From NCBI RefSeq assembly GCF_964340395.1, contig NC_135566.1, positions 13,561,501 through 13,625,500 on the forward strand: a stretch of DNA of 64,000 nt, in the 5' to 3' direction. Shown here one piece after another: positions 3,001-40,875 of this stretch. The position numbers and the translations under genes are program-made. Numbering within the stretch: position 1 is the first letter of the stretch; every line of letters starts with the position of its first letter. The notes under the pieces are model-generated. The model did not search any database, was not told where the DNA came from, and saw only the letters and a program-made list of their open reading frames with translations. This stretch comes from Glandiceps talaboti (Eukaryota > Hemichordata > Enteropneusta > Spengelidae).

Positions 3001-6000
3001 GACACTTCTTCTGCTTCTTTGAGGTAACCAGGAGGGTATCCATGGATCCTCATTTGATAGATATACGGTGGTAAGTTTTGGTTTCCTATACCCAAAGCTT
3101 CTCTGAGTGAGTCACTGTAAAAAGAATGGTGACATAACAACGGTGAGGATGACACTGTGCTGTTTACTCTCACAGTTCTCCATTAGTCCTGTGACAAACC
3201 ACTCACCTAAATCAGTTGTGAACAAGCCTGAAGATTACACCATTCTTGTACCGAACTTTAAGGATATACATGATATGTAGAACAAAGATGATATGTAAAT
3301 TAAGTGGCAATTGACAGGACTTCAGTGACTGTAGTTCATAGTGCAGAAATACCTATCTGTTATTGCTGTTCTAAAATCTTTTTAAAAAACCAACAACCAC
3401 ACACTCACTCAGTGGATGTACCTTTGTAATATTTACCAGATTTATCCCATTTCTAAGTGTTACCAGAGTTCTGATACTTCAGGAAAACTACAGTTAGTTA
3501 ATTGTATTAATATATGGAAGTAAACTTTTGTTCTAAACACAAAAGTGTTACCTGAAATTATCAACTGAGTACTTTGTCAACAGATTGACCCATAATTCAG
3601 AATGCAGGTTACCTAAATAAAGGAATCACAGGTACATGTGTACCTGGAAGTTTATATTGCCTACCAGTCTGTTTTACTGAGATGGTTAAATGTACCATTA
3701 TGTTCAAATTCTATAGGATGATATTCTCTTATATCTTACCTGATGACACCTGGTTTTACATTTGGAAATTTCTTGACAAGTTCTTCCCCATCTTTATGAT
3801 ATCTACTAGATCGAGGTGAGTTTCCAAACTGTGTCATAAACATTTGTCTGTTTTGATTAATTTTGGCCATATCACGTGGCTGAAAGTGATGAAAAAAAAT
3901 TGCAGATATGTAAGATAGTGGAAATGTTCAAATGAATTAAGTTATTCCTTTACTAATTCCTTTACAGTATTGTTTACACCCTTCCAAAAGTGTTAGAAGT
4001 CAGAATGGTTTCAGCAGGATTTTAGAAAACTTATTGATTATGAGATCAGTGATATCAATCCTAGTGAGGCCAGATTTGAACTGTGTAGTCTTTTCTTTTC
4101 CGATTGTAAATTGGTAGAAGATTCATCTTTGAGACTGTCTAAGGAATAAATGATTATTCATAGCAATTTCTTTGGCACTGGCTAGGATAAAGTACACTTC
4201 CGCTAATAGTACGTGATAAATATTTTTCGAAATTTACAGTAGCAAAATTATTTATAACTTTATATAAGAATTTTTGTGAAGTTGGTCTGTCCTGTGATTT
4301 TCAAGAGCCTACATGTAGTACCAAATGCAAGAAAGGACACAAATTAACAATCTTTCATTGTTTAAAATAAAAGATTTGTCAGGATCTTACCTGGGTACAT
4401 TCTCGTAGCGAATGGTCCTCACTACCACAATTGAAGCACGTAGCCTTGATTTTGCTGAAAGTTATAATATTGATCAGAGTATTAGAATTAGTGACAACAA
4501 GTCATCATAGGCTTAACAACTCACTACAAGTACATCTGTCACCTATATCATAGTATGTATCTGTAATTACCTCTGACAAAAATGTTGGCAGAAGGTTAAG
4601 TTTTCATCCATGTTTGTTAGTAGGACATCTACATAAATGAACTATGGAATTAGATTTTTAAAGAATGCCTCATAAGACAATGTCCAATTGAGTAAATTTT
4701 ATGGTGATTCAATTTCGAATCTGGATTTTAGTGAAAATTCTAGCAAAGCCATGACATTGGAAATGCATATGATGTTTCAATCCATCTACTACAGACCTTG
4801 GTCACACAATGATTTAATTAGTCAGCGCGAATGTTTAAGAAACTGACTATCCACAAATAATGTTTAATTATGTTGGTTTTATATTATATAGTGCTTTCAC
4901 ACTCTGTGCTCAAAGTGCTTTACAATCATAACCCCTGGCATGGATCGACAAGTACAGTGGCACAGCGGCCCTTTACTTCTTCAACTCCCTGGGGAGCATA
5001 CAATCCATTGCAGCTTCTATAAGCGCATAGTATTAAATCATTCACACTGCAACCTTTATCCTACCAGGTCCCCAATTATACAGCTGGGCTGACTGAGGCA
5101 TAATCGTGGTTCAAATCTTGCCTACAGATGCAAAGCTGGCCACTCTAACCAATTGCCCATCATGACTCCAAATGCAACATTGCAAGGTAGTTGCATCCTT
5201 GGTCAATGTTCCGAGACTTTAATGTTGTATAATCAAATCAGTGTGTGATCAAGGTCTATACTAGATGGAACAAAACTTTGCATTCATTTCTAATTTACCA
5301 TTCCAAAGTAACTACAATGTTTATATTCTACTGTCACATTGATTCTTGGAACTATGCACAAAATATTCTCCAACAACTTGAATACACTTACGGTTTCCTT
5401 TTAGGTTTAGAGCCATCATCCTCCACAGGCAGTGCATCCATGAATACTTGTGTATAACTGTACACGATTCAGGAAAACAATATTCTGTACAATACAATAT
5501 TTGATTTCTATCCCATAGTTTTGCCATTCCTCCTGGAATGTACATAGTGTACAGTTGCTTCATTAGCTGAGTATACATATAAATCAATATATTTTTGGTG
5601 CTCATTTTAAAATAAGCAATCAAAATTCTATCTGACACATACATTAACACTAGAATAGTTTGACTAAGCTTTTAAGTACACTATTTATTATTCACTGAAT
5701 TGGCTGCAGGAATATTACAGGACTTTAACGAGTTACATCGCTATCCTCCAGACTTTGATATTGATATAAAGCTCTTTCAAAGTTCGATGAGTATAAGTTG
5801 AATTAATACATACTTTTTTTTTTCTTTTTCTATTTTTTTTCCTTTTTTTTTGGGGGGGGGGGGGTAAATATTGCTGCCTATTATTATGGTATTATATTTA
5901 CTGAAGCATGAGTATTATATTACTAATATACTAGGATAGTTTTTAGAATAAAAAGAGTATAAACTTCAGCTCATTCCACTTTCCTGTAAAATGTGTAGTG

Positions 6001-8975
6001 TAAGTGGACACAGTAACTTATTGGGCACTTACACCACACAGCAAACTGCGATAGATTAGCATAATGATATAGGATACGTGGGTATGTCCCAGCAGAGAGT
6101 AAGTTGTGGATTCCAGTCTATCAGAGGTTTACCCAGCTGATCAATACAGAAATCACTGTAGTACTGCACATTACCAATAGCTGTGAATGCCTGTCGTGAT
6201 TTCACCACGGATGAATCTGTAGTCTTTTGGTCCTTTTCTAGTACAATGGCTGAATTCTGTAAGTAAATGTCAATTAATTTTAAAATAAGTCTTGTTCCCA
6301 GCAATCCTGCTTCTGTTTTTTTTTTTATCTGGCAAACTGTGGTGTTAAGACTTTAACAATTCCAATAACAGAAAACAATGATGAAAAAATCTGATACATT
6401 TATTGGTTACACTCAATATCTTTAAATGTAACCTCAGTAAAATTAGTGGGAACATGAGTACATGTAGTGGTCAGCTGTAACTATGGAATTTGTCATTCTG
6501 ATGAGGATTGTCAATAACAACATTATACTGCCACCTAGTGGTCAGCTGTAACTATGGAATTTGTCATTCTGATGAGGATTGTCGACCAAGACAGATCGAA
6601 AACTCAAAGCTAAAAACTTTGAACTACTTGTGTGTTTTAACCTTTGTAAATCATTTGATCTACCAAGCTGATGAACATTTTTTGGTTACATGTAGATTAT
6701 ACCATAGACAGTGTCTATGATCATACCTACAAATGCACACTTACTGCACTTCATGCAAATACTGTGAGTGGAAAGTTTTATACTAACTCTTCTGTAAATT
6801 TCAGTACAAAATGCGAAAAAATGTATTTAGCTACTGCATAAACATATCTGCTGACTACCACGAAACAATGCATGTCCATAGTAAGGATTTCCACTGATCA
6901 ATGAACGGGGAACAAGTTTCAAATCAGTGTTGCGACAATTGTGTATAGGGGTACGCAACATAAATCATGAAATGACTAAAGTTTATGAAAATGTTTTTAT
7001 TTTCAGGAGTGGCGTTCCAATTTAAAGTTACAACTCCATCCCCGTTCAGAAATGGAAGTTTCGGAAGAAGTCACTGGTTTTAATATTTCCTGGGCATGTG
7101 GTATGACACTGACAGCGAGCAGACAGATTTATTACATCAGGACTGTCATCACCAGAAAACAAACAACTTGTAGATTTCTTACCTGTGGATAAGGTTGCAT
7201 TTTATCTGTATTTGTTCCATCTCTTGACAATTGTTGACCCCTGTATGCCAGACCAATCATAAACTCTTCTATATCTTGTTGATGAATCCTACAAGACAAG
7301 AAACATACAAAGCAGACAAATCAACATCATATTCTATTTCATACTTTGTATGTACACTTTCAGAATAAAGTGTGGGTAGAATGCTGTATTATCTTCTGTG
7401 GTATAACCCTCTCACATTGTTGTGTGTTGTGCAAATGAAAATCAAAACTATAGAACATTCATTCTTTGGCTTACTTGATTAAGTCGTTATTCATGTAGAC
7501 GACTTGAGCAATAGGTCCATCACGTCCTGCATTGTCAATCACAGCATTACTATATGAAAAGAGAAAAGCGTGATAAGTATCGATGGTTGGAATGTCCCTT
7601 CCTTTGTCATTATATGACATATATAAATAATGGAATTCTAGGTTTGAATTCATCTTTTCAGACTGTGTGAAGTAACTCCATACACAGCTAGCAGCCATGA
7701 ATGTATTTATCGTGCCACTCAACATCATACATTGTCCTTCGTGTACACAAAACATACTCTCATGTCATCCTACATCAACATGTTTCAATGGGAGAACAGT
7801 GTTCTGCACTGAAATGAAGTCTGTATATGTATGCATGGCAGAGACATACAAATTATGTAATAACAATTGACATACATTATTGCTCTGTTGATTTACATTA
7901 TGTTTGTAATAAGTTTAAGCAAGTACAGCTAATTGTTATTGTGGAAGGTGCAAAAAACATTGTCAATGTCATGACCAAATTCTGAAACTTACATGTATGC
8001 ATGTTATTTTGCACAATACTTTCTATTACTCAATCTTACAGTAAAATCTTCATGTTGTACCTACCTGCTCTTGATCAGCAATCTAAGTTTCTGTTTCAAT
8101 TGTTGATGTGATAAAAGTCAAGGGCAAATAGACTACTGCGCAAGAAATATGGAAATCTATAAACAAGTTACAACAAATTCTAATTTTGCCTTGGAGAATA
8201 TACAATATACATACTTTGTCATATATATCTTATTTAAATATGCGTGTTGTGTGTCTATCAATTCATACATGTAGTCTAGATCTGCCTGTGGTCTTGAAAT
8301 TTGATTACACTAGACTACTAGAATTACATGTACATGTAGACTACCCAATTCATAGGTAATGTAGGCCCCCCCCCCCCCCAACAAACAAACAAACAAAACG
8401 ATAACCAACCACAAGCAAATTATAATATTGCACCCAAGTTTACACATATGTTATTTATCACTTTTTTCTCAATACTGATTTCTACTTATTCAAATTCAAA
8501 ACAGTCACAATGTTTAATACTACATGATCGATACTGTATTTGCCAATTGTTGGAGTCATTTTGTCCTTCGATATACATGTACAATGTTTACAGTATGAGG
8601 GATGGCTTCACTGGACTTCTTGGGAGACAAGTGTTTATATACATGTATGCTTGAAGAACTATCCAGTATAAATAACAGTGTTTTTGCTAAGGTTTGGGAA
8701 CCCCGGTAACAGAAAGGGGGGAAGAGGTAAAACTGGTAGTGCTTCCCATGCAATGTATCATAGTTTAGGTGGGGAACCCCGGTAAAATGATGTGGGAACC
8801 CCGGTAGATTTTACCTACTTACTGCCCTTAAATAAAACACTGAATAAAGATTATTATGTATTATTATTATTACTGACAAGAATATAAAATAGTAGACTGA
8901 CACACTGTGCAATGAATAGTAAATGAATTATAGCATTGAAGTGAGGGTGTTAGGTCACAGGGGACAGCAATCATG

Positions 8976-9014
<39 letters not shown>

Positions 9015-9881
9015 GATCAAAGCAAAGAAATTATAGTAATATGAGGTTGGGTGTTGATTAGTGCAATAATCCCCTAGAATCTAAGATGTCCTGCCAATAT
9101 GCAGTATAACTGATACCACAGTAGAGATGTTGACATGATTTAGAGAAGGTCAATAATTAAGGAGTAAAGTCCACCAGGCGTCTTTATTCAGTCAATACAA
9201 AAGTGAGAAAAGACAAGAGTTTATTTATTTATTTTGATTTAATCTCAATCATTCAATCAATCAATCAATCAAGCAATCACATGATTGCTGTCCCCTGTGG
9301 TTAGGTTTAACATGGAAGTATAACTGACGTCGGTTATACCTTGTCTGCGATGTGCGTCTCACCACCAATATAAACACACCGTGTACAATCATGGATGTAT
9401 CAGTGAGTCTCACTAATACATTTGTACATTGCAATGAATTCACATAAGATTTGTACAATGTAATGACGGATGTTAAACACAGGCAGTCCACTCACTATTC
9501 TACAGTAAAACAGTACATGTATGTGTCACACAATATATTTCAATATGACATTGGATCTATTGGCTAATAGATACATGTTACAACCCACCATGGTCTAGAG
9601 TGAGTGAGGAAACTGTTGATCGTCACCCTCACTGTAATCATTGACGGAGAGTACAATGTACACTACTAATTACAATTTACAAATTCTGAACAACCTGCTC
9701 ATGACGTTCAAAGGATATTTTCTCTTCGTAGATTAGAAATTTCTTCCTCATATTCTTCCACTTTATCCTTGGTTTGACTATCTTCTTCATCCGATTCCTC
9801 GCTACTGGATCGTGATCCATTTTCAAATTGTTGAAACAAAGCATTGTTTCCGAACAAGTCTTCGGTCGAATTTCCAGCCAT
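1..9881 (-). CDS. ZCCHC8: Zinc finger CCHC domain protein 8, NEXT complex scaffold (3' end outside window)
   Basis: Coding exons in transcript order: 9881-9719, 8107-8065, 7549-7475, 7288-7183, 6256-6078, 5457-5392, 4454-4391, 3879-3740, 3114-2966, 2361-2234, 2029-1988, 1760-1565 and 459-1. All phases join, giving at least 603 residues. Family knowledge: ZCCHC8 holds the MTR4 helicase and RBM7 in the nuclear exosome targeting complex. Visible parts are an acidic/serine-rich N-terminus with a short coiled coil (exons 1-2), a CCHC knuckle with spacing C-x2-C-x4-H-x4-C (CFNCGSEDHSLREC, exon 7), and a proline-rich PSP domain (LPPYIYQMRIHGYPPGYLKEAE, exons 9-10). The C-terminal half has Pro-Ser-Glu-rich blocks and a helix (ELEELEAKQRLLLQALE) matching the conserved C-terminal region. 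Introns 1 and 5 look U12-type. The 42-bp exon 11 is the least certain. The ATG at 9881 gives the family-like start. Confidence 0.93.
839..964 (+). other. Small orphan ORF or detached first exon inside a ZCCHC8 intron
   Basis: A 41-codon ORF starts at an ATG in good context (G at -3 and +4) and begins MAEGGQYDLTKVDPREDPTE. It lies on the strand opposite ZCCHC8, in the intron between exons 12 and 13. A possible splice donor (GTAAGC) sits near 947, just before an inverted-repeat element begins. The composition looks like a genuine soluble N-terminus, not random sequence. I do not recognise the protein. It could be a 5' exon of a nested gene, a retrocopied fragment cut by the neighbouring element, or chance. 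Confidence 0.25.
951..1390. mobile_element. Fold-back element (MITE-like) with about 90-bp inverted arms
   Basis: The left arm (about 951-1040) and the reverse complement of the right arm (about 1298-1390) align through the shared cores CTAGTTCCTGATGA, TCTTCATTCATTAC and TCTAGTCAATC. The interior (about 250 bp) has no coding potential that I can support. It lies in a ZCCHC8 intron. No clear target-site duplication was found, so the ends are approximate. Confidence 0.7.
2465..2994. repeat. 42-43 bp minisatellite overlapping a ZCCHC8 splice donor
   Basis: About a dozen imperfect units recur every 42-43 bp. On the plus strand they share CTGACCTTTACCATG followed by a GTTATACTGTTACATAGTTTAA-like core. 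Units are most regular from about 2600 to 2990 and decay toward 2465. The last unit at the high end includes the final bases of ZCCHC8 exon 9 and its donor (exon end at 2966), so each unit carries a copy of that exon/intron junction on the minus strand. Confidence 0.9.
4880..5165. repeat. Interspersed repeat family A, copy 1
   Basis: This segment aligns with 30458-30660 through long shared blocks such as GGGGAGCATACAATCCATTG, TACCAGGTCCCCAATTATAC and GGTTCAA. It lies in the ZCCHC8 intron between exons 6 and 7. The block around 5090-5125 looks like a weak Pol III B-box (GGTTCAAATC), so a SINE is possible, but I see no convincing A-box or tail. Confidence 0.7.
5816..5866. repeat. Poly-T / poly-G low-complexity tract
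   Basis: A run of T-rich sequence passes directly into 10 or more G in the ZCCHC8 intron between exons 5 and 6. No coding or regulatory signal is evident. Confidence 0.85.
6466..6583. repeat. Tandem duplication, about 47-bp repeat spaced by 71 bp
   Basis: The block beginning AGTGGTCAGCTGTAACTATG and ending GATGAGGATTGTC occurs twice, starting near 6466 and 6537. It lies in the ZCCHC8 intron between exons 4 and 5. The near-identity suggests a recent local duplication. Confidence 0.85.
8676..8842. mobile_element. Short TIR element, family B, copy 1 (5-bp duplication AATAA)
   Basis: This 167-bp element begins CAGTGTTTTTGC and ends AATAAAACACTG, an inverted repeat. It is flanked by the direct repeat AATAA on both sides. 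A near-identical copy lies at 51157-51323, sharing the repeated internal phrase GGGAACCCCGGTA. It is non-coding, so presumably a non-autonomous DNA transposon. It sits inside ZCCHC8 intron 1. Confidence 0.85.
8956..9299. mobile_element. Inverted-repeat element built on ATTG/CAAT tracts
   Basis: The left arm starts CACAGGGGACAGCAATCATG and runs into an (ATTG)n tract. The right arm is the reverse complement, an (AATC)n tract followed by CATGATTGCTGTCCCCTGTG. The arms are about 60 bp and the interior about 220 bp. It lies within ZCCHC8 intron 1. It is interpreted as a MITE whose arm holds an expanded tetranucleotide. Confidence 0.75.
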
Positions 9882-10130: not shown

Positions 10131-12612
<2,482 letters not shown>

Positions 12613-13803: not shown

Positions 13804-16733
13804 CAGGGTTCTCCACACGGTGGATAACAGTGGACGCTCCCGTCCACCTCTCGAAGGAAAAAGCCACCACAAAAAGCTTGCGTCCAGTTCTATTGTTCCA
13901 TTGTTAAAACTTGCCACCCATCTGAATTTGTATGGGTGGGGGACTTATCAATGGTGGACAATAATTCATTAACACTTAGACGGACTCTTTGCATTGCGAA
14001 AACAAAAGCAACTAACACGATGCTTTGTCGTTCAGATCTGATACAAAGACCGCTAAAGTCGGTCGGTAAAAGCCGCCACAAAAGAGTTGCGGTGTTTCAC
14101 TGTCAAACATCATTTAAAAGTGCCGCCCATACAAATACTATCACTGTCTTTCTATTGTGTGTACGTTGAACATGAACCGACAATGCAAGCACCGTGATGG
14201 TGTGAAATACGTGATATTAAGAATAAAATAACATTAAAGAAAACACAGTGTTGCCGAGTCGATCATTTTGTGAAGTTGAATAATACCTTTAATTTGAAAC
14301 ATTATCACTGAAATAATTTCTGCAGTGGCCATGTGCATAAAATGAACACAAAAATCTCGTCCAGTACCACTTCTAACTCGACTGTTACCTGATACACATC
14401 GAGAGAGAACACCACCATGTCGCTTTTCAAGTACATGACTCCCGTCAACCGTAAACGGAAGAATAACGATGAAGAAAACCAAGCTCCAACAGAACTGCCG
14501 AGAAGTGAAGTCAAGAAGGCCAAGCTAGACAGCGAAGTCACTGACAGGGGTATACAGTACACTCCCAAACAGTCCACGTCATTCCGAAATGAATGGATGA
14601 GAGGACGCGAATGGTTATACTTTCGCAATGGTGAGGGCATGTTCTGTCGTTTATGTCAGAAATACAACATGCGCCCATATGATCGTGGTACCTGGAACGA
14701 TATCCCATGCAAGAGAATTAGATTGAGTAGCATCAAAGATCACGAACAAACCGCAGCTCATAAAGATACCATCAAATTCGAACTTCAGTCACTGTCAAGT
14801 CAAAACATCGGCGAAGTTATCAATCCAGAAATAGCTAATGACGCAATCACATCAGCCTTCACCGTTCTATACTTCCTAGCAAAACGTCGAATACCACACA
14901 CAACGAATTTTGAACCAACCCTCGATCTCCTGACTCAACTCGGTTTATCAATCAAGCAACAGCTGAATGTTTGTAAGAACGTAACATACACGGGTGAACG
15001 ATCTATCCAAGAAATGCTGTATATACTGTCATCAATTCTAGAAGAGAAGACGATCGCTGAGTTGAAGAAATCAGAATTTTATTCCATTATGCTTGACGAA
15101 ACAACAGATGTCAGTACCAGTGAACAATTGACTTTGAACTGTAGATATTTGGACGAAAACGGGCATCTGACAGTTAGATTTCTAAAGATGATCGAACCAC
15201 TGAAACCACGTGGTGACCTGGCCGTGACCCTGAACGCCGAGTGTATTACCAATCACGTGTCGTCTTATCTGCGTGAGAAGGAACTCGACCTCGATAGTTT
15301 GGTTGGAATTGGGACAGATGGCGCCAGTGTTATGACTGGTAAACATTCTGGGGTCGTGAAGAGATTACAGAACATCGCCGAGACAGCTATTGGTATCCAC
15401 TGCCATGCACACCGTCTCCAGTTGGCAGCTGTACAGGCAGCGAATGCAGTCCCTTACGTGAAGAAGTTCACATCAATCCTCAGGCAGCTGTATGACTTTT
15501 TCAATAACAGCGCAGTACGTATGGCGGGCCTTCTCACGATCCAGTCAAATCTACTACAAGAAAAACAACTACGACCAATCGAACCGTCGTCAACGAGATG
15601 GCTCAGTATTGAACAATCAGTCACCCGGTTGAAGAACACTTTTGTCAGTGTTGTTCTGAGTCTTCGGTTCCCAGATGAAGATACAGGCATTCTAGGCAAG
15701 TTTAGCATCTTCGATGTTCATAATCTTAGTTCCGATGTCAGCGACGATGTGAGAACACTGTCACAACACTTTCTTCCAAAAGAAGATGTAGCAGACGTCG
15801 TCAACGAGTGGGACGGGTTCCGGGTCTACGCCAGAGATACCATTTTAAAACAGCCAGACGTGACATCCGACTACATCGTCAACCATCTGTGCATAACGCC
15901 ATCACTCACTTTTGCATTTCCAAGAGTAACACAACTTGCCAAAATTTATCGCGTTCTCCCCTGTCACACTGCTGATAGCGAAAGAACATTTTCCCAGTTA
16001 AAGTTAATTAAAACATTGCCACGCAATCGCCTGAATGAAGCATCACTTGACAGTTTAGTGAGGATTGCCACTGACGGTCCTTCAGTGGACAGTTACGATT
16101 ATCCAGCTGCAGTTCAACGGTGGGCTGGTGTGAAGAACCGTCGCATTCGGATTTCGTGCCAGTCAAAGTAATGAGCTGATAATGATGGAGGGTGAACTTG
16201 AACTTAATTTTAAAATTTGAACAGTAACTTTGAACATTTACAGTTAACCCAGTATTTACAGTCAGTCAGTCAGTCAGTCAGTCATGATATTTATTTTATT
16301 AAGCAGTCATTTATTTTATTAATCAGTCATTGCATTTCAAATCAATACTGTGGTGTGTGTATATGCAGTTGGAAGTCATATAGAAGTTGAATTGGGAGCA
16401 TTATTTTTTTTATTAATCAGTCCTTTTATTTCAAATTAGTATTGTATCATGCACATTAGTAGAATTACTAGAATGTCTTTAAAATAAACTTGTGTAGAAA
16501 AGCAAGACAAATTATCAACCATAAGTTTGTGTGGTGTATGAACTTAAGTTGTGTTGTGAATGTGCATTGAGAAACACTGGTGTGTATCAGTAAACAATGT
16601 GTCAGTTTGAAATTAACATAGAAGTTGAATCATTAACATTAATTAATCATGAATATTAATGATGTTATGAATATTAATTAATCATGAATATTAATGATTG
16701 TCCACCACAAGATTAAGTCTGTGGAGAACCCTG
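13804..16733 (+). mobile_element. Complete hAT-type DNA transposon, about 2.93 kb
   Basis: The ends are perfect inverted repeats, CAGGGTTCTCCACA at the left and TGTGGAGAACCCTG at the right. They flank a single intact transposase ORF. The sequence CGTAAA abuts both ends directly. If the element is taken one base shorter at each end, the flanks are ACGTAAAC and GCGTAAAC, an 8-bp duplication with one mismatch, as is usual for hAT. Sub-terminal regions are rich in GTGGAC/GTCCAC and in AT-rich palindromes (16620-16710), probable transposase-binding sequence. It lies between the unnamed gene and MED21. Confidence 0.9.
14417..16171 (+). CDS. hAT-family transposase (KIAA1586/ZNF862-like), intact 584-residue ORF
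   Basis: The protein cuts and pastes its own element, or could be a domesticated relative. There is a zinc-finger-like segment near residues 73-116 (FCRLCQ, later H-x5-H). The RNase H-like core follows: MLDETTD near residue 225 (first catalytic Asp), GIGTDGASVMTG near 298 (second Asp) and HCHAHRLQLAA near 330. Then come the SSTRW motif and a C-terminal hAT dimerisation segment, DSERTFSQLKLIKTLPRNRL, near 518 with the presumed catalytic Glu. The length is near the usual 600-700 residues. There is no frameshift or internal stop. It is a single exon with its ATG about 610 bp inside the left terminus. The closest human relatives, from memory of the motifs, are hAT-derived KIAA1586, C17orf113 and ZNF862. 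Confidence 0.92.
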   Translation: MSLFKYMTPVNRKRKNNDEENQAPTELPRSEVKKAKLDSEVTDRGIQYTPKQSTSFRNEWMRGREWLYFRNGEGMFCRLCQKYNMRPYDRGTWNDIPCKRIRLSSIKDHEQTAAHKDTIKFELQSLSSQNIGEVINPEIANDAITSAFTVLYFLAKRRIPHTTNFEPTLDLLTQLGLSIKQQLNVCKNVTYTGERSIQEMLYILSSILEEKTIAELKKSEFYSIMLDETTDVSTSEQLTLNCRYLDENGHLTVRFLKMIEPLKPRGDLAVTLNAECITNHVSSYLREKELDLDSLVGIGTDGASVMTGKHSGVVKRLQNIAETAIGIHCHAHRLQLAAVQAANAVPYVKKFTSILRQLYDFFNNSAVRMAGLLTIQSNLLQEKQLRPIEPSSTRWLSIEQSVTRLKNTFVSVVLSLRFPDEDTGILGKFSIFDVHNLSSDVSDDVRTLSQHFLPKEDVADVVNEWDGFRVYARDTILKQPDVTSDYIVNHLCITPSLTFAFPRVTQLAKIYRVLPCHTADSERTFSQLKLIKTLPRNRLNEASLDSLVRIATDGPSVDSYDYPAAVQRWAGVKNRRIRISCQSK

Positions 16734-25680: not shown

Positions 25681-26636
25681 GTCATCAGAGGTCGCGAACT
25701 TCGCATCTGTTTCCTTTTCGCGGTAAAAAACTCGATTACTAAAAGTCCTAGTCGATTTTACAGGTAAGTAACCACACAGCCGATTTTCCAATCATTCTAG
25801 CACGGTATCAAGGTAAATATATGAACCAAAGACAAATATTTCTACGATATCTGATAACCTAAGTTGTTGGATCCGTAAACGCGGAAGTGAATTTGAATAA
25901 TTTATATATAAAGCTTATTACCAATACATGTAGCATCTGGAGGTACTAAGGGGTATCTGAGATACCTCCGACCACGCCAATACCAAAGTTCTCAGAGTAC
26001 GTGTACTATGTAGTCAATCTCGGTAAAGAACCATTTTGTACTCAATGAACTATTTTAAAACGTTATCTCTGCGCTCAATACCACTTATACAATGTAATTA
26101 CCCACTTACAAGTGTATTATTAGTATTATTAATGTTATTACGTTTACTACATTCAAGTACTTTTCGTCCAAAAGTATTGATGGTTTACGTTTCATGTTCA
26201 GATCATGGAAGTATAACCCATAGATCACATATGAATTACTGAGATCACATTCACAAATACATCCATGCTCAGACCAGTTTTATCATAATATTCAGTATTT
26301 GTCATTTTGATGGCCTCACTCTAAAATCATGAATGCTCCAATTTTGTCCTCAGACAATGGTGGTGCCATCAAACGATTTGTGACCCCATCCCAGCCATAC
26401 TGGCATCAGGTTCCTTTGGAGATTTTTTTAAGTCTCATGATAAAGTAATCTTTGTATATTGAGATCCATCTTTACACATTCACACGACTGACTATAGTAC
26501 TACTAATAGTTTTGATAAGGAGGTATAAGCTTATACACTTCCCTGGTTGAGACACATTTCAAACCATCAATTGATATGATTGTATCCACAGTCAGTTATT
26601 AATCAAATTTACCATCACTCACTTCACAGGTCCATC

Positions 26637-28211
26637 ATGTTGGCTTTCCTTGGCTATCCCAAGGCATCAACATCACAAGATGGTGATCCAGCTGGCCAAG
26701 ATGATACAGAGGGAGATCGACATGAGGATACAGAGCCAGAGACACCCGAGATTCTCGGCTCCTTAGAGGAGTTTGCTGAGGGGATTACCTCCTTTTACAA
26801 CAACACGGAGCTTAGCGATATCTCTCTCTTAGTTGGAAGTAAAATATATCATGCCCACAAGTTCATAGTCACAAGGTCCAGCGATGTATTGCAAACGATG
26901 CTGACAAGTTCAAACTGGAATGAATCTCAACAGTGTGAAGTCAAGCTGGAGGAGTCTGATGATTGTGCCGAGATGTTTCCCGATTTCTTGAAGTTCATGT
27001 ACTCAGGACGTATTGGGTTGACCATCCAAAATGTTCTACCTGTGTTGTTCCTAGCCGACAAGTATAATGTCAAAGCTCTGCGTAAAATTTGCTCCGACTT
27101 CATGAGTGAAAAGGTAAAGAAGCGAAGTGTTTACGGTGCCCTAAGATGGCTTTCCTATGCCAGAAAGTTTGAGCTTCAGAGTCTCGGGGAAAGTTGTATT
27201 GAGGTCATACTGTCTCAGCTAGACAATGTTGTGAATACCAACGAATGGCTTGAACAAGACGTTGACTTTATTCATGAAATTCTGAAGAGTTCAGATGCAG
27301 TTATATGCGATGAGTATGCACTGTATGTCGCCGTTCAAAAATGGCTAATGGTACCCGAACGGGAAGACGAACTGGATGATAACATTAAACAACTTATCCC
27401 ACTCATCCGATTCTCGCAAATAGAACCACAGAGGTTATATTCCTTGGAAGAGTCAGAGCTAGTCAAGAAGAGTCCAGATCTTGTTAAACCACATATCACA
27501 GAAGCTTACAGATTCCATGCCCTTGTGGAAAGCATGACAGACCACTTTCAAGGAGAAGAACACATCCCACGATGTTACTCCTCACAGCGCTACCTTCACC
27601 AGATGAAAGATGTCTTATCACTAGCATCGGGACAAGACCGTAAGAACATCCTCTGGAAAGTTCCTGTTACTTCATCTGATCCATACGTTGGTTCTGACAA
27701 AAGGTCTCGCCCTAAAACCTGGAGTGGTCTTTGTCAGGTAGGAGGGCGCGGTGGCATGACAATTACTCTTCATCCAAGCGAAGATCACGTCAGCAAGAAA
27801 TTCAAAACCTATATCCTGATTCGTGCCACTCGGGGAACCGATCTTGGTATTCAACGTAAAATGGGTGTGGTGCGAGGGGGATCACGGGTACAGATGTATC
27901 ACCATGGAGAATATTTTACACCTGGATTCCCAGGTGGCCATCCACATAGCATGATGCACTTTCACTCACACATGAGAAGACCCATGTGGTTTGATGATGA
28001 GGACTCGCCACCATTCGGTGGTGCAACACCAGTCCTTTCCTTTGACCCACCATCAAGACACAAGCAGTATCCGTATGGTGGTATTGAATCTTTGCATAAT
28101 GAATCTAAGAGAATTCCTCTGCCAGGCACCCAACCTATTCACTTTGAAATCAGAGACATCGATCCAGACACAAAATTTCTTGTAAGCATAGGTATTGTTC
28201 TGATTGGCTAG
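26637..28211 (+). CDS. BTB/BACK domain protein, BTBD17-like
   Basis: A single coding exon encodes 524 residues from the ATG at 26637, which follows an acceptor (TTCACAG ending 26629). An in-frame ATG at 26580 lies before that acceptor and is probably intronic. A 5' non-coding exon likely ends at the CAG/GTAAGT donor at 25763. An acidic N-terminus (to about residue 60) precedes a BTB/POZ domain (about 60-165; LSDISLLVGSKIYHAHKFIV). A BACK domain follows (about 185-285; WLEQDVDFIHEILKSSDAVI). The C-terminal part is MATH/TRAF-like and includes a His/Gly/Met/Pro-rich loop. This order matches BTBD17. Some relatives are secreted, but I see no signal peptide here. The function is not established from the sequence. 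Confidence 0.85.
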   Translation: MLAFLGYPKASTSQDGDPAGQDDTEGDRHEDTEPETPEILGSLEEFAEGITSFYNNTELSDISLLVGSKIYHAHKFIVTRSSDVLQTMLTSSNWNESQQCEVKLEESDDCAEMFPDFLKFMYSGRIGLTIQNVLPVLFLADKYNVKALRKICSDFMSEKVKKRSVYGALRWLSYARKFELQSLGESCIEVILSQLDNVVNTNEWLEQDVDFIHEILKSSDAVICDEYALYVAVQKWLMVPEREDELDDNIKQLIPLIRFSQIEPQRLYSLEESELVKKSPDLVKPHITEAYRFHALVESMTDHFQGEEHIPRCYSSQRYLHQMKDVLSLASGQDRKNILWKVPVTSSDPYVGSDKRSRPKTWSGLCQVGGRGGMTITLHPSEDHVSKKFKTYILIRATRGTDLGIQRKMGVVRGGSRVQMYHHGEYFTPGFPGGHPHSMMHFHSHMRRPMWFDDEDSPPFGGATPVLSFDPPSRHKQYPYGGIESLHNESKRIPLPGTQPIHFEIRDIDPDTKFLVSIGIVLIG

Positions 28212-39420: not shown

Positions 39421-40875
39421 GAAGCAGGAAGACGCCGCCATCTTGTTCCGTAGATTTGGAAAGGATACCCATTAAATTTATCCGGTATCATCCACCGCAA
39501 AACCAAAATATTGGTAGGTATCCATGCTTTAAATATATCTCTTTGGTTAACAATAAGTTTTTGTCATACTTTTTGGAAGAGTTTATTAATCTTGACTTCT
39601 AGCAGACGGTGTGTAATGTTTCAATGGAGTGAACGTATTAACACTTCTAATAACAGGAACCGCCCCTCTCGCCACGTACAAATTTCGATGAGATTTCTTT
39701 ATTTTTGAGTTGGAAGACTGTTCTTTAGGCTGAGAGGCTTATTTCTAGACCGTTTTCTTGTGTAGTATTCCATGTGTGTGAGTTGCAAACAATAAAACAT
39801 TGGTTTGATTTATTTTTTATGTGGTTGTATGCGTACTTCCGGTCAAATCGTCAGCAAGTCGGGGGTGGCAGAAATTATCGGAATATAATATATGTTGTTG
39901 TTGTAGTAGTGTTGTTTTAAAACTTAGTCCATTGCAGTTTTATTTGTCGTATTCTGTTGTCTGAGCTTAAACAACAGCATGGAAAAATGGGGGCAAAGTA
40001 ATACCTTGAAAGGTAAAATCAGAAATACAAATGACATTCAATTGATATTATTACTACTAGAATGGAACGGCCGAGATTCAAAACATCATTGCCGACTTTG
40101 CCCCATTGTCATCGTACCACTGACATAACCATAAGTGGCAAGATATTGTGTTCAAAGCAAGGAAGTCATCGGTGACAGTGACGTTTTACATGATATGTAT
40201 TTATAAATGTTTCTTTTTGCCTTTGGAATTTTGTCCACAAGGAAATTCTACATAGCCGCCTGCATGTAATTAATTGTTGCACAAGTTATTATTCATTTCT
40301 AACATTTATGGTGTCTGGCACTTGTCAACTTTTCTGTATTGTACAATTTCAGGAGTCTGACACAGATTGCATACATATTGATTGTCTACATTTTATAAAA
40401 AGAAAATTTTTTGATGATTTACAAGATCAATATATTTTTTTGAAAACTACTTTTGAGTCTTGTTAGCAGCTCGGTTGAATTCATAATGTGATGGCTCTTT
40501 GAAAAAAATCACATGTGAAGGATGTATGTGTACATACAATAGACACATGTATGTGACATGTATGTGTACTGTATCATATTACGTCTGTGAAAGTGAAGCC
40601 TTATCTAAAGTACCATAATTGATGTAATTGTTATAACAGTGTGAAAATAATACCAATATTATAGGTCATACTTGTATTCCCAGATGACGATGGCTGTGAC
40701 TCGCAAAAATATTTGAGTGATCTAATATTTTTTCAGCACTGTTGATTGATTAAATTAACTTTTGTTGAGAAATATACACTGAATGAAATTATTTCAATAA
40801 AAACAAAGAAAACATTGTAATTTTGACATTTTTTTAATCATTCAATAGATAGATATTTGACTGTAAAACGCCAGG

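Follow-up and report, generated by a model that had tools for sequence, protein, structure and literature searches.

A probable U12-type AT-AC first intron in the ZCCHC8 gene of the hemichordate Glandiceps talaboti

How is the first coding exon of ZCCHC8 joined to the second in the hemichordate Glandiceps talaboti? The question arises in a 64,000-nucleotide stretch of contig NC_135566.1 (positions 13,561,501 to 13,625,500 of the forward strand, hereafter the window), whose minus strand carries most of the gene. Exon 1 (9719-9881, ATG at 9881) could be aligned to human ZCCHC8 and ends one base into a codon; read on without splicing, its frame passes from RREN through ATC and CTT into a TGA stop. 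The evidence set out below, from splice signals and from the protein across the junction, indicates that exon 1 is very probably followed by a functional AT-AC intron of the U12 type (8108-9718, minus strand, 1,611 nt, phase 1).

Signals and protein junction of intron 1

Exons 1-9 of ZCCHC8 were placed between 9881 and 2966, the end of exon 9 being approximate because it lies inside a repeated stretch; the final coding stretch extends past the window edge and terminates in the adjoining DNA. The joined product of these exons (328 amino acids) matched human ZCCHC8 in the PDB (E ~1e-76, query residues 18-324) and exceeded the Pfam cut-offs for a zinc knuckle (PF00098) and a PSP domain (PF04046). 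The coiled-coil segment, zinc knuckle and PSP domain follow one another in that order, identifying the product as a member of the ZCCHC8 family, scaffold of the NEXT complex. A search of the genome with the first 129 residues returned three matches, all at this locus, indicating one gene, and no spliced copy of ZCCHC8 was found among them.

Directly after exon 1, on the minus strand, stands an exact ATATCCTTT (9710-9718), as a preceding sequence-only reading had proposed. It splits an AAT codon after the first base, matches the U12 5′ splice site RTATCCTTT at every position, and with its last T opens the in-frame TGA (9710-9708). The intron ends in TATCAC, the terminal AC occupying 8108-8109, and the QQLKQKL segment follows ...GCCCTTGACTTTTATCAC. 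The branch site CCCTTGACT (8116-8124, minus strand) includes CCTTGAC from 8123, with the branch A 10 nt upstream of the final base of the intron; this confirms both the AC end and the branch-like motif about 10 nt ahead of it that had been claimed earlier. Exon 2 (8065-8107, minus strand) is 43 nt long and is followed by the U2-type donor GTAGGT.

Joining 9719 to 8107 yields RRENQQLKQKL, which aligns to RAENQELKRKL of human ZCCHC8 with no gaps, and the alignment is ungapped across the junction (query residues 18-118), so that the in-frame segment and its family order, as previously described, were recovered. All joins of the GT-AG, GC-AG or AT-AC type that remain in frame as far as exon 3 were enumerated and scored against human ZCCHC8. 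The pair 9718/8108 scored highest (181) among 47 frame-keeping pairs (43 AT-AC, three GT-AG and one GC-AG), compared with 163 for the runner-up and 116 for the top GT-AG pair; the GT-AG and GC-AG alternatives were rejected on this ranking. Since the top-scoring pair is also the pair bearing the U12 signals, protein homology and splice signals select 9718/8108 independently. The AT and AC termini, together with the in-frame junction, are those of a U12-type AT-AC intron.

The published U12 consensus is RTATCCTTT for the 5′ splice site and UCCUUAACU for the branch site (PMC2846911). CCCTTGACT agrees with the latter at seven of nine positions, and one of the mismatches, G for A, also occurs in other published U12 branch sites (PMC7367187 Table 1). 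Scores were taken from a weight matrix of 15 published introns (12 taken from PMC7367187 Table 1 and three AT-AC rows of PMC2846911, with U2-type rows and GT-AG Trichinella rows excluded), a small set in which several members are mutual orthologues (SMYD2, UFD1). Scanning with such a matrix, a check that had been suggested with the original claim, gave 13.0 for the intron 1 donor, a value matched or beaten at 3 of the 127,976 positions in the window, one of them being this donor. The branch site scored 9.5, which 16 of these positions reach. Exons 1-9 are separated by seven further introns, whose donors scored from -5.6 to -14.5 in six cases and 9.4 in intron 5.

The same genome contains genes for three of the four small nuclear RNAs (snRNAs) specific to the minor spliceosome, each found as one match above the Rfam cut-off that spans the whole model: U11 (E 6.6e-19), U12 (E 2.7e-25) and U6atac (E 6e-30). 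The CCDC84/CENATAC family gave five genome matches, all on one contig within ~18 kb. Positions +4 to +9 of the intron 1 donor pair with the genome's own U6atac at six of six bases, and the branch site, taken together with the bases just upstream of it, pairs with the native U12 snRNA at 9 of 11, which 62 of 127,976 window positions equal or better.

Several observations weigh against this interpretation. First, the intron 1 donor pairs with the genome's own U11 no better than does the U2-type donor of ZCCHC8 intron 4 (6.5 for both), so U11 pairing does not discriminate between them. Second, GC rather than TT precedes the branch core. Third, exact RTATCCTTT occurs three times in the window, and two of these sites (39468 and 36559) are at no visible exon end. 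Fourth, the frame would also be kept by an AC six bases beyond, at 8102, which lies 16 nt from the branch A and would give RREKLKQKL with a score of 157; the exact 3′ end of intron 1 is therefore placed by homology together with the usual spacing.

RTATCCTTT with at most one mismatch showed no enrichment in the window (37 observed against 41.9 expected). Nor is the donor motif enriched genome-wide: counting the two strands of 590 Mb, exact ATATCCTTT was found 7,610 times and the reversed pattern 9,985 times. All nine CCTTRAC sites in the window have AC or AG 8-21 nt downstream, so that a loose spacing test is little evidence by itself. It is the co-occurrence of donor and branch site at a junction demanded by homology that stands above chance, with a joint chance roughly estimated at ~1e-7; this figure multiplies the genome donor rate over ~20 positions by the Markov CCTTRAC rate (120 per Mb) over ~6, position numbers that we chose ourselves.

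Taken together, a U12-type AT-AC intron accounts jointly for donor and branch site as well as for the phase and the protein junction, and in this respect the sequence-only reading is supported. Under this model, U11 and then U6atac, which would replace it, would recognise the ATATCCTTT donor, and U12 would pair with the bases around a bulged branch A at the CCCTTGACT branch site. The minor spliceosome would then use the AC lying 10 nt further downstream to link the first two exons, creating the coiled-coil segment RRENQQLKQKL. If intron 1 were kept, translation would stop after 57 codons, and ZCCHC8 output would consequently depend on minor-spliceosome capacity. We infer from the sequence that intron 1 is spliced by the minor spliceosome and that this dependence may have a regulatory effect. 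An AT-AC intron 1 would also correct a gene model that annotation restricted to GT-AG introns would break at exon 1.

Alternative readings of the exon 1 border

The alternative that survives best, itself very unlikely, is a GT-AG intron removed by the major spliceosome, running from a GT upstream within exon 1 to the AG at 8091, with ATATCCTTT incidental. It had been stated that exon 1 cannot end at any GT donor without meeting a stop. This proved too strong, as five GT dinucleotides precede the stop and three GT-AG pairs stay in frame, the best being GT 9761 with AG 8091. Against the 181 of the AT-AC pair this join reaches only 116, and its protein loses 20 coiled-coil residues at the junction (VEEYEEEISNLRRENQQLKQ) in a region through which human ZCCHC8 aligns ungapped. 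In addition, its donor, AAA/GTGGAA, looked poor to our eye.

Slightly less probable again is that the AT-AC intron is removed by the major (U2) spliceosome, as has been described in some human genes. Major introns with AT-AC or related ends do exist, and 85 have been counted (PMC8280824), but an intron of this type would need a U2-like 5′ splice site rather than TATCCTTT, and intron 1 lacks one. Instead, its donor and branch site fit the U12 consensus, and they base-pair with U6atac and U12, respectively, of the same genome. A chance motif at a mis-modelled exon border, with an extra exon hidden in between, may be set aside as the least probable reading: ATATCCTTT is indeed common across the genome and two of the exact window sites lie off visible exon ends, but the junction protein needs no extra residue and the joint chance of donor and branch site is as small as estimated above.

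Intron 5 and the minor introns of ZCCHC8

The donor score of intron 5 raises a further question, namely whether ZCCHC8 contains a second minor intron. Intron 5 (5458-6077, minus strand, phase 2) separates exon 5 (6078-6256), which ends in WDIPT with its final codon split, from exon 6 (5392-5457), which starts with YTQVF. It has GT-AG ends, starts with GTATCCTATA and contains TTTTCCTGAATC, with an A 10 nt before its AG end. Among 43 frame-keeping pairs for this intron the GT-AG pair 6077/5458 scored highest (207); the other pairs were rejected on enumeration, the next reaching 196.

The donor, GTATCCTAT, scored 9.4 in the U12 weight matrix, and 15 of 127,976 window positions are as good. Intron 5 resembles GT-AG introns of the U12 type in its GTATCC donor start, in TTTTCCT as the first half of its branch site and in its non-zero phase. 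It differs from them in that A at donor position +8 breaks the strict RTATCCTT rule, in which one C may be T (PMC2846911), and in that the branch site ends in GAAT rather than TAAC. The score of TTTTCCTGAATC also argues against a U12 assignment, as its 4.3, a value that 195 of the 127,976 window positions attain, falls below the 5.0 found in intron 3, which has a U2-type donor. Pairing of this branch site with the genome's own U12 involves 8 of 11 bases, and 485 of 127,976 window positions reach or exceed this. The branch site is thus indecisive and the case for intron 5 rests on its donor, from which we consider it probably a second minor intron, of the GT-AG subtype. The sequence-only reading made no mention of this U12-like donor.

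The exact GTATCCTTTCC sites at 39468 and 36559 (minus strand) were rejected as further U12 donors because their context shows no exon end. Lying off visible exon ends, they are usable as chance controls for U12 donor calls.

Human ZCCHC8 is a published minor-intron gene (PMC4667643, PMC8280824). In patients with RNU4ATAC mutations (Roifman), it is among three genes singled out because correct splicing is almost entirely lost, with minor-intron retention of 100% in affected compared with 27.1% in unaffected individuals (PMC4667643). The human intron was also tested by reverse transcription PCR in cells from CENATAC patients or depleted of CENATAC (PMC8280824). The introns served by this factor are chiefly AT-type, of which 92% are affected; because 24% of G-type introns also respond (PMC8280824), the human ZCCHC8 intron is not proven to be AT-AC. 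It belongs to the same gene, and its position may match that of intron 1 or that of intron 5, or it may match neither. Excerpts of the literature on ZCCHC8-ROS1 fusions, searched for the borders of human exons, give exon 2 as the one that is fused and do not mention the type of splice site; in the excerpted text of a U2AF35 study, ZCCHC8 appears only as an interaction partner.

A published likeness in sequence is the AT-AC U12 intron of human SMYD2 (ATATCCTTTA...CTTTCCTTGACT...AGCAC, phase 1; PMC7367187 Table 1), which shares with intron 1 the donor 9-mer, the CCTTGACT branch core, the AC end and phase 1. SMYD2 is, however, another gene, and TT stands ahead of the branch core in its intron where intron 1 has GC. 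Human U12-type introns are conserved in ~20% of invertebrate comparisons (PMC2831892), so that survival of such an intron here would not be exceptional. Minor-intron genes are reported to carry only one or two minor introns (PMC6865273), and even two in ZCCHC8 would fall within known bounds. With ZCCHC8 already known for minor-intron splicing in human, intron 1 is a further, ordinary case of a known kind, and it offers a clean AT-AC example in a gene that in human is sensitive to disease of the minor spliceosome.

A broader reading, which we regard as unlikely, would have ZCCHC8 in this lineage carry minor introns of both subtypes, AT-AC in intron 1 and GT-AG in intron 5, as part of a feedback widespread in animals, kept for regulation and not by neutral drift. 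It is suggested by the participation of NEXT in snRNA decay: minor-spliceosome capacity would set the level of a nuclear decay factor, which would act back on snRNA precursors. If both introns are minor and their positions match the human gene, ZCCHC8 would be a test case for minor introns that regulate nuclear RNA decay.

Repeats and neighbouring features

Intron 1 had been described as host to two transposon-like elements. The first (element 1, 8956-9299) was borne out as a real dispersed repeat: its terminal inverted repeats are 55 nt long and 96% complementary, and ACCTAAC directly flanks both ends as a 7-bp repeat. The genome search for element 1 gave 204 BLAST pieces, its own included, and many of those listed cover the first 58 bases at ~90%; copies are fewer than pieces, many of which are TGAT simple repeat, and the search scored only part of its candidates. 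For the second (element 2, 8676-8842), what was found is an element-like stretch with weak, imperfect 17-nt inverted ends (CAGTG...CACTG, 82%). Both lie away from the splice signals of intron 1.

Residues 40-86 of ZCCHC8 (exons 1-3, 9881-7475, minus strand) gave a sub-threshold Pfam match to Herpes_BLRF2 (23.9 bits, cut-off 25.8), most likely an effect of the coiled coil in this segment. Among viral contigs, 24 pattern matches yielded no confirmed relative of ZCCHC8. A divergent plus-strand frame apparently starts at 10131, and its position ~250 bp from the ZCCHC8 ATG (9881, minus strand) suggests that the two share a promoter.

Further along the window, a 326-codon stretch (11632-12609) had no Pfam match. 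There is also a 587-codon open frame (14408-16168, plus strand) with zf-C17orf113 and hAT dimerisation matches over the cut-off, which, by these domains, is a putative transposase-derived gene or the remnant of a hAT element. A BTB-BACK (kelch-like) coding stretch occupies 26580-28208 (plus strand), as recognised by a Pfam match. Finally, a putative PEX12-like gene lies at about 38700-36000 (minus strand), one of its exons giving a Pex2_Pex12 match just under the cut-off.

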